Positions 1,541 to 42,798 of a stretch of 45,801 nt of DNA are shown in pieces. Source of the DNA: Rhodospirillales bacterium RIFCSPLOWO2_02_FULL_58_16 (lineage in GTDB: Bacteria > Pseudomonadota > Alphaproteobacteria > Rhodospirillales > 2-02-FULL-58-16); contig MIAA01000039.1 of assembly GCA_001830425.1 (NCBI GenBank), positions 48,185 to 93,985 on the forward strand. The letters are read 5' to 3'. How positions within the stretch are numbered: position 1 is the first letter of the stretch; each line of letters begins with the position of its first letter. The position numbers and the translations under genes were made by a program. Under the pieces are notes generated by a model. The model had not been told where the DNA came from. It searched no databases and was given only the letters and a program-made list of their open reading frames with translations.

Positions 1541-1637
1541 TTCCCCTCCTTGCCAAGGAGGGGTCAGGGGAGGTTGCCGCCGATACCCCCTCCACCTCCC
1601 CCTTGAAGCAAGGGGGAGGATTCTTCAGAGTCATTAA
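1541..1637. repeat. GC-rich dispersed palindromic element, empty copy
   Basis: Two back-to-back palindromes: CCCCTCCTTGCCAAGGAGGGG-type at 1543-1563 and CCTCCCCCTTGAAGCAAGGG-type near 1593-1618. They are separated by GGTTGCCGCCGATAC and end in TTCAGAGTCATTA. The same modules recur at 2869-3352, 13721-13884, 37222-37541 and 45687-45712. It lies between divergent fliN and the MFS gene. No ORF inside it is convincing. Confidence 0.8.
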
Positions 1638-2859: not shown

Positions 2860-2868
2860 CGCTCGGCG

Positions 2869-3352
2869 ATGGATAATACCAGCGGCCATAAAGAGTGACT
2901 CTGAAAAATCCTCCCCTTACGAAGGGAGGTCAGGAGGGGTTTTGTTTTTACCTCCCGACGCATCGGCTGCAAGGAAACGCCGTTTTTAAATTTGATATCC
3001 GTGTTCATCGGTGTTTATCCGTGGCTTTCTCATTTTATACCAATTCGCTTTCTATAGATCAGCATTAGAAGACGAAGTAGTATAACTCACGCGAAGACGC
3101 TAAGACGCCAAGAAAGGCAAAATGAAGAATGGGTCTAAACTTTGCGCCTTTGCGTCTTGGCGTGAGATTGTTTTTGATATTAATTTATAGAAGACAAATT
3201 GATATTAGTCAGCCACGGATGCACACTGATAAACGCAGATAGTGATTACATAAAAGACGCTTTTTCAGCAACCTCCCCCTGCCCCCTCCTTGGTAAGGAG
3301 GGGAAAGCGCAGGGGCCGCCACGGGTCAGTAATTAAGGCCGATGGCATAAGC
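2869..3352. repeat. Concentric array of four nested inverted-repeat families
   Basis: No gene in this stretch; it is built of repeats. The outer arms (about 2872-2945 and 3262-3352) are the two halves of the GC-rich element (CCTCCCCTTACGAAGGGAGG; CCCTCCTTGGTAAGGAGGGG; GGGTCAGTAATTAAGGCC). Inside is a second inverted repeat (2995-3027 with 3209-3241; ATATCCGTGTTCATCGGTGT against a reverse-complement copy). Inside that is a third (about 3034-3056 with 3179-3204; ATACCAATTCGCTTTCTATA). At the core is a fourth (about 3088-3112 with 3150-3176; CACGCGAAGACGCTAAGACG). All share nearly the same centre. Confidence 0.8.
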
Positions 3353-3436
3353 AGTATGCACAGGATAAAAATGAGGGAAAAATCCTGAATATCCTGTCTA
3401 TCCATGTTTGAAATATTTGCCTCGAAAACAGCGCAA

Positions 3437-3652
3437 TCATCCGTCCTTGATGGACCCGAAGGCCTTTTCGTGGGCGTCGAAGGCGGCCTCCATCTTTTCA
3501 GTAGCTTCCCGGTGGTCCTGCATATCGCCGCCGATCTGGGTCAGCTCCAGTTCCAGAGCCTCCATCAATAACCGGGCGATCATCTTTTTTTGCTCATCGC
3601 AAGCTATCCTGTGAGCGGCTATGGTTGCATCGCTCAGGCGTCGGCTAAACAT
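3437..3652 (-). CDS. Small hypothetical protein
   Basis: 71-residue charged, Ala/Glu/Met-rich helical protein (for example KMIARLLMEALELELTQIGG and EKMEAAFDAHEKAFGSIKDG). There is no signal peptide or membrane segment. I do not recognise a family. The start is set at the ATG at 3652 because GAGGT lies six bases upstream; a TTG at 3685 would add 11 residues but has no good ribosome site. It lies between the nested palindrome array and ubiX on the opposite strand. It is plausibly real because it has a good ribosome site and balanced helical composition, but coding status is not proven. Confidence 0.5.
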   Translation of the reverse strand: MFSRRLSDATIAAHRIACDEQKKMIARLLMEALELELTQIGGDMQDHREATEKMEAAFDAHEKAFGSIKDG

Positions 3653-3812
3653 GGCGGACCTCGTTGTTTCAGTCGAAGATATCAATACGCATAACTATAC
3701 ACCGCTTCGCCGCCCCGGCCAAGGCAAAGCGCGACACAGGGTAGATTGCCGCCTTGTCTAAAACGGCGGAAGCGGTCATGATCGCGGCGCCTGTTAACGG
3801 TTTAGGGTCATC

Positions 3813-13720: not shown

Positions 13721-13884
13721 GGATGAATAAATCATACCAGCGGCCTTAATCATTGACCCATATGGCCCAAGCGCTTTCCCCTCCTTACGAAGGAGGGATT
13801 GGGGGAGGTTGCCGCCGATGAATCCGGGAGGCCAAAACCCCTCCTGACCTCCCCTTGGCAAGGGGAGGATTTTTCAGAGTCATT
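13721..13884. repeat. GC-rich dispersed palindromic element, complete empty copy
   Basis: The gap between cstA and the RHH gene holds one full repeat. It runs GATGAATAAATCATACCAGC, GGCCTTAATCATTGACCC, palindrome CCCTCCTTACGAAGGAGGG (about 13781-13799), GGTTGCCGCCGATGAATCC, CCCTCCTGACCTCCCC and a second palindrome (CCTTGGCAAGG core), ending TTTTTCAGAGTCATTC. It carries no inner insertion, so it shows the element's uninterrupted form. Confidence 0.8.
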
Positions 13885-13908
13885 CTTTACAACCGCCGGC
13901 ATCACATA

Positions 13909-37221: not shown

Positions 37222-37541
37222 ATGATAATCTGAAAAATTCTCCCCCTTGTTTAAGGGGGAGTTAGAGGGGGTCGTTGCAGCAATCGAAGAGGGAATTATC
37301 GGCCTGTGTGTTTTGACCACAGAGGCACAGAGGCGCAGAGAATATTTTTCTCTGCTTTTTCTTTTTTCTCTATACCTCCTCTGTGTCTCTGAGCCTCTGT
37401 AGTTCATAAAACAGTGCTTATTCCAGTCAACGCGCCGGGCGTTAGGGGCATCGGCAGCAACCTCCCCTGGCCCCTCCTTGGTAAGGAGGGGAAAGCGCCG
37501 GGGTTGCCACGGGTCAATAATTAAGGCCACCGGCATAATCC
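37222..37541. repeat. Nested palindromic element, two layers
   Basis: This gap between the radical-SAM and DegT genes is repeat DNA. Outer layer: halves of the GC-rich element at about 37222-37280 (CTCCCCCTTGTTTAAGGGGG) and 37445-37541 (CCCTCCTTGGTAAGGAGGGG, GGGTCAATAATTAAGGCC). Inner layer: CACAGAGGCACAGAGGCGCA (37311-37335) pairs with an inverted copy at 37371-37402 across a T-rich loop. The right edge (37514-37541) encodes the last codons of the DegT protein. Confidence 0.8.
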
Positions 37542-42263: not shown

Positions 42264-42798
42264 CCGGTTTCTCCAGTTGGCCTCGAAGAGCCGAGACCGT
42301 CTCCTGCAAGTGCTTCGTTTCACTGCGAAAATCACGACTCATGTCGGACATCCGCTGCTGGTGGCTTGAATCGACTCGTTCCAGTTGAGTGCGCAGTTCA
42401 CGAGCCGTTTCCTTGAGTTGAATAATTTCGGCGCCGGTTTCGGCGATGACCTTCTGAACGCTTTCCTGCTTGTCGATTTTCATCTTCTCCATCTCGTCGC
42501 GCAAGGCCTGAACCGTAGCTTTGAGCTGAATTATTTCCGAGCTGTACTCGGCAATCGTCTTCTGAACGCTTTCCTGCTTGTCGATCTGCATCTTTTCCAG
42601 CTCGCCGCGTAATGCCTGCGCCGTGGCCTTGAGCTGAATTATTTCCGAGCTGTGCTCGGCGATCGCCTTCTGGACGCTTTCCTGCTTGTTGACCTGCGCG
42701 GCTTCCAGTTCATGGCGCAGGGCGCGGATGGTATCGACGTGATGGCGGTTTTCAATTTGAGCCTGATAAAGCTCGCTTGAATTTTCCTGAAGTTCCAT
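42253..42798 (-). CDS. Coiled-coil protein made of five 36-residue repeats
   Basis: 181 residues, all explained by one 37-residue and four 36-residue units. The three central units each begin KQESVQK-IAE and continue EIIQLK-TA-LR--LEKM-I; the DNA repeats with a 108-base period. The outer two units are more diverged. The protein is entirely helical and strongly predicted to be a coiled coil, with no signal peptide or membrane segment. I recognise no family. Its stop overlaps the start of the cyclase gene by 11 bases (ATGGCCGATAA), so the two are made together, and a scaffold or regulator role for the cyclase is a reasonable inference. The gap of about 120 bases to the divergent histidine kinase is AT-rich and should hold both promoters. 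Confidence 0.8.
   Translation of the reverse strand: MELQENSSELYQAQIENRHHVDTIRALRHELEAAQVNKQESVQKAIAEHSSEIIQLKATAQALRGELEKMQIDKQESVQKTIAEYSSEIIQLKATVQALRDEMEKMKIDKQESVQKVIAETGAEIIQLKETARELRTQLERVDSSHQQRMSDMSRDFRSETKHLQETVSALRGQLEKPDGR

Follow-up and report, generated by a model that had tools for sequence, protein, structure and literature searches.

In the genome of Rhodospirillales bacterium RIFCSPLOWO2_02_FULL_58_16, we found that a 471-base spacer between two genes holds four nearly concentric inverted repeats (positions 2877-3347 of the window, by which we mean the whole analysed stretch of 45,801 nucleotides). As the layers, designated A, B, C, and D from the outside, occur independently of each other and are flanked by short direct repeats, and as another nested family, F, has a parent insertion sequence, we consider it quite probable that the layers are short, non-coding, palindromic MITE-like elements that were successively transposed into short AT-containing targets near the middle of their hosts. 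Intermediates of the nesting, direct repeats, independent re-insertion at one spot, and nesting in the reversed order were all observed. Short TA-rich targets explain most of the nest; a hairpin-loop mechanism is unneeded, and a preference for the middle remains.

The nest in the window

The locus is intergenic: it lies between an open reading frame (ORF) at 1678-2859, MFS-like as judged by eye, and an ORF at 3437-3685, and the interval between these (2860-3436) has no ORF of at least 70 amino acid residues. The layers are centred at 3112 (A), 3120 (B unit), 3121 (C[D] unit, that is, C carrying D), and 3133 (D unit). Folded as a single DNA strand, the 471 nucleotides gave -89.7 kcal/mol, as compared with -54.4 +/- 4.6 for shuffled sequences (z = -7.65; 0 of 100 shuffles were as good). 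An earlier note on this DNA, made from the letters alone, had described four nested palindromic families with nearly the same centre, and both the centres and the fold bear this out. The third layer, counted there as one inverted repeat, is asymmetric rather than built of two plain arms: 3035-3085, on its left, is already a hairpin by itself, and the arm that follows D forms another, shorter one. Of the two copies of A regarded there as empty, one is indeed a complete A and the other is only a fragment (both in Table 1). The ungapped inverted-repeat finder gave no output for the nest region because the arms are imperfect or gapped, and the Rfam covariance models had 0 matches in the window. 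Elsewhere in the window (42391-42714), a 108-base unit is present in three tandem copies that are 69-76% alike.

Table 1. Coordinates of the layers, their direct repeats, and further copies of A in the window
Feature	Position	Strand	Basis
TAA, left target duplication of A	2874..2876	.	family-wide TNA duplications of A
Composite A[B[C[D]]], A ends TACCAGCGGCC...GGCCGATGGCA	2877..3347	+	about 83 perfect genomic copies of right hairpin
A left half, GC-rich stem-loops	2877..2972	+	
GCAA, left direct repeat of B unit	2969..2972	.	empty A form (13734-13905) has single GCAA
B unit with ATCCGTG-type arms, carries C[D]	2973..3267	+	
B left arm TATCCGTGTTCATCGGTGTTTATCCGTGG...	2996..3030	+	helix 2996-3030 with 3207-3241
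TTA, left duplication of C[D] unit	3035..3037	.	CTA at the empty site of L004
C[D] unit, ends TACCAATTCG...CAAATTGATA	3038..3204	+	second copy in L003
TAA, direct repeat on left of D (weaker; no independent fix for the D boundary)	3083..3085	.	same boundary in L007
D unit, CTCACGCGAAGACGC...GCGTCTTGGCGTGAG then ATTGTTTTTGATAT	3086..3180	+	
TAA, right direct repeat of D	3181..3183	.	
TTA, right duplication of C[D]	3205..3207	.	
B right arm	3207..3241	+	helix with 2996-3030
GCAA, right direct repeat of B	3268..3271	.	
A right half	3268..3347	+	
TAA, right target duplication of A	3348..3350	.	
Partial A, ends missing	1541..1637	-	matches positions 22-118 of A
Complete, empty A (A2 type) with TGA/TGA flanks	13734..13905	-	
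A carrying E unit (CTCTGTG-type arms), TTA/TTA	37224..37536	+	

Every layer in the window is flanked by short direct repeats: TAA for A, GCAA for B, TTA for C[D], and TAA for D. The duplications were judged on boundaries fixed by other copies or by empty sites in the case of A, B, and C[D]; the boundaries of D are the least certain. Since a 3-bp match arises by chance in about 54% of cases when both boundaries may slide by 3, the TAA repeat of D is weak evidence by itself. For A, the 3-bp flanks were equal in 14 of 21 rows versus 5.8 after shuffling (p = 0.0002), where some palindromic copies were entered in both orientations and the distinct copies are thus slightly fewer than 21; the flanks read TNA in 38 of 42. 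In a further family, E, equal flanks (TTA/TTA) were found in 18 of the 26 listed copies, including one outside A (L164). C[D] has TTA on both sides at two unrelated places, the window and locus L003, and an empty B site in L004 has a single CTA where C[D] would sit. Similarly, the empty A2 form has one GCAA and the filled form has two.

A, C, and E have 3-bp duplications of the TNA/TTA type; GCAA is not TNA, and B therefore uses another route. IS5-related elements use TNA-type 3-bp targets. The target duplication of PIF/Harbinger is TWA (PMC4482050), and mPing targets TTA, with a 3-bp duplication and an extended target preference (PMC2836001). The duplications of A, C, and E resemble IS5-related and PIF/Harbinger-type insertion, but we do not class these families there.

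Separate layers and partial nests in the genome

The genome itself (2.73 Mb, 53 contigs) was searched with patterns, and only the stretches around the matches were read. These searches, which allowed mismatches and miss old, diverged copies, gave about 83 perfect right hairpins of A, about 55 arm pairs of E, 21 arms of B, tens of arms of D, and few copies of C; F is present in ten paired copies as well as in single ends. An empty A is about 154-170 bp long and has the terminal inverted repeats TACCAGYGGCC and GGCCGATGGTA; those of C are TACCAATTCG and CAAATTGATA.

Empty copies of A are present in the same genome as the nest. One locus has A[B] without C and D (L004), another has C[D] outside A and B (L003), and a third has D alone (L005). 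In L025, the order is the reverse of that in the window, A lying within B. About 20 copies of A[E] were found, together with A[F] in L136, L134, and L183 (the host A is truncated in the last) and E[F] in L167. The full A[B[C[D]]] is present at two loci, the window and C52, which are 89% identical; in the C52 copy (L002, 1735-1911), F is inserted at the A/B boundary, which results in a five-family nest. Single layers, partial nests, and reversed nests in one genome therefore indicate stepwise nesting without a fixed unit or order, and the intermediates (empty A, A[B], C[D], and D alone) agree with the earlier proposal of successive insertion of separate small elements. The converse, a single four-layer element of fixed composition that is moved whole, would account for the two loci with all four layers; however, it is refuted by the layers that stand separately and in varying order, and we give it virtually no credence. 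Composites then moved as whole units, and the inner elements spread as passengers of the outer ones.

In the window, A would have entered the intergenic spacer with duplication of TAA, and B would then have entered A with duplication of GCAA, after which A[B] would have been copied. C, already carrying D, would have entered B at TTA, and the whole A[B[C[D]]] would have given the second copy elsewhere. The targets would be of the 3-bp TNA/TTA type for A, C, E, and probably D, and TA for F.

Other arrangements were also seen. Half of a C/D palindrome is joined to half of E in L006 (1550-1700), and half of E is joined to half of D' in L018 (1400-1530). Locus L020 (C7:28485-31009) has an array of several D-type arms, with units about 174 bases apart.

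Transposases and entry sites

F is about 200 bp long, with ends GCGCGTCAGGATTGAT and TA flanks. In L195 (C10:1593-2632), F-type ends lie about 1 kb apart around an IS630-type DDE_3 transposase (E = 4.9e-34), which lies in two overlapping frames; the genome has no other DDE_3 match. Since the ends and the TA target are common to F and this insertion sequence, F is an IS630 MITE and, judging from the sequence, would be driven by the resident IS630. No transposase with the ends of A, B, C, D, or E was found, which counts against our explanation; which transposase moves these five families is a matter on which we infer. The single Y1_Tnp gene in the genome (L060, 817-1659), of the REP-associated type, is flanked by GGGGTCAGGTCTTGCC-type inverted repeats that are unrelated to A-F and not by the palindromes of the nest; a RAYT/REPIN origin was therefore rejected. 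Y1 transposases are not known to make TNA duplications.

When copies of A were aligned to the consensus, 19 of 20 long inserts were at 51-83 of 159. The flanks of the paired E, F, and C[D] units placed the junctions at 59-80 of 154 (86-89 of 170 and 70-97 of 172 in the two longer forms of A), and none of these flanks gave a junction near the ends of A. The simple type of junction is at 59-64. E in A also has a long type of junction, with the left junction at A 68-79 and about 12-15 extra bases; one simple insertion does not account for this type, which likewise counts against our explanation. Three F copies lie in A at the same TA (59-61 of 154); as each is no closer to the others than to an F elsewhere or an inverted copy, contrary to what one shared event would give, and as one is in the opposite orientation, the three insertions look independent.

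In nine events, the distance from the host centre (0, centre; 1, end) was 0.00-0.35, i.e., within the inner 35%. The sum of the distances was below that of random draws among matching host motifs (p = 0.0005), and the events remained central when one was kept per inner/outer pair (7 collapsed events, p = 0.003), a result of moderate weight, as the events are few and were gathered post hoc. A candidate for an off-centre E in A (L033) was rejected: E lies beside a truncated A, and the other side is without the missing A end. Inner elements are therefore not placed at random but are more central than chance or the target motif predicts, and a centre bias remains that is partly unexplained. The earlier note had proposed a test for enrichment at loop centres; the central placement is found, but most E and F copies in A do not lie in a loop. 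E and F enter A mostly at TTA or TA, at 59-64 between the stem-loops, and in the fold of A this entry site (58-60) is in the linker beside the left stem-loop.

Insertion targeted by structure, into the loop or cruciform tip of a palindrome that is, e.g., single-stranded during replication, would account for the restriction of all scored insertions to the inner 35% beyond motif availability, for the lack of junctions near the A ends, and for the placing of two inserts in B, A (L025) and C[D], whose distances from the centre are 0.12 and 0.02 of the half-length. However, the entry of E and F is mostly in the linker, F has an IS630 partner, for which TA is normally sufficient as the target, 5 of the 10 paired F copies and several E copies are outside any recognised palindrome, and the repeats beside the single Y1 transposase gene are of another kind. 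As E and F enter mostly in the linker and not in the loop, a loop or replication mechanism is not required, and we consider targeting by structure unlikely. The hairpin loop as the target and movement during its replication, both suggested previously, are not supported, given the conventional partner of F, the ordinary 3-bp duplications of A, C, and E, and the transposition of whole composites. It is also rather doubtful that several unrelated transposition systems in this genome sense the palindrome centre as a structure (a cruciform or junction), with palindromic MITEs recruiting one another and growing inside out. The palindromes might instead recombine or switch templates in replication and thereby swap central segments without transposition, which would fit the chimeric junctions in L006 and L018 and the spacers enclosed by the B and the D arms, which have nothing in common from copy to copy. 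Against this stand the IS630 parent of F and, at unrelated places in the genome, exact target duplications and conserved element ends, and such swapping is very improbable.

Under successive transposition of MITE-like elements, the centre would be favoured as the place where usable targets spare the arms of the host, because mobility and survival are kept when the arms and ends stay intact. The bias may then be one of survivorship, in which insertions into the arms are lost or disable the host, and central ones amplify and stay recognisable. We give this reading somewhat less than an even chance: the composites that were amplified, A[E] and A[B[C[D]]], have intact ends, but the three F copies in A look like single unamplified events and are all central, although their number is small. 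Palindrome centres may, in addition, be modestly preferred as such, which the statistics allow; what causes the bias that is left is likewise something that we infer.

Related arms in other genomes and known systems

D-type arms (CTTNGCGNCTTNGCGNCTTNGCGTGA, 21 fixed bases) had at least 118 matching stretches in other genomes (L197-L314), where about 0.1 match is expected by chance according to our own arithmetic. By record title, the matches are from cyanobacteria, Bacteroidales, Planctomycetota, Verrucomicrobia, Acidobacteria, Anaerolineae, Geomonas, Sphingomonas, Methanothrix, and Methanoculleus; the family is patchy within the phylum (28 of 398 genomes). The D-type arm (window 3086-3166) consists of three 8-base repeats ending in GTGA. 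In 83 pairs of D arms, the five free positions were complementary in 228 of 415 cases versus 147 +/- 9.5 after shuffling, a contrast that is somewhat inflated because many pairs were counted from both strands; the two arms covary. The spacers of the pairs are unrelated, the shortest being 9 and the longest 198 in length. Among 150 genomes of the order, matches were found only to B-type stretches and to one C-type stretch, and none to A; an exact 20-mer of A had no match in the genome collection, from which near relatives were possibly left out. B-type arms (ATCCGTGTTC repeats) are present in several families of the order (L082-L105) with unrelated central spacers, some of which contain other palindromes (L103 and L105).

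Nests whose order can be read and whose junctions are exact form a natural record of the landing sites of small elements. In this genome they are numerous enough for one to ask if palindrome centres are chosen by structure or merely for TTA, which has so far been a hard question in bacteria. The D-type arms, almost unchanged in sequence from cyanobacteria to methanogenic archaea, point to a class of elements with an unexplained spread. Our literature search, limited to open-licence papers, gave no description of deep mutual nesting of non-autonomous bacterial palindromes, and the search for the arm sequences gave nothing relevant.

The present elements are like REPINs and BIMEs with RAYT (PMC3116915, PMC2817692) in having many intergenic copies of paired palindromes; unlike them, the Y1_Tnp gene lies among unrelated repeats and A has TNA duplications. 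REP elements are landing sites for insertion sequences (PMC1525189), and here, too, bacterial intergenic palindromes are repeatedly used as landing sites by several mobile families. REPs, however, receive autonomous insertion sequences, whereas the inserts here are themselves non-autonomous palindromes, which go into one another and take along those that they already contain. As in MITEs in general, the elements are short and non-coding, with terminal inverted repeats, target-site duplication, and many copies per genome. The likeness to IS630-family MITEs holds for F only, which has the TA duplication and shares its ends and target with the resident DDE_3 insertion sequence; the ends of A to E differ from these, and their repeats are of 3-4 bp. 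The closest precedent is the nested Tourist and Stowaway MITEs of grasses, reportedly described by Jiang and Wessler in 2001 (cited in PMC2836001). Like these, the present elements are short non-coding palindromes with TTA/TAA (TWA) or TA duplications that have inserted into each other, a likeness that does not extend to a PIF/Harbinger-type protein, none being shown here. Unlike the grass MITEs, which are eukaryotic, they are found in a 2.7-Mb bacterial genome, in nearly concentric nests with a depth of up to four or five.
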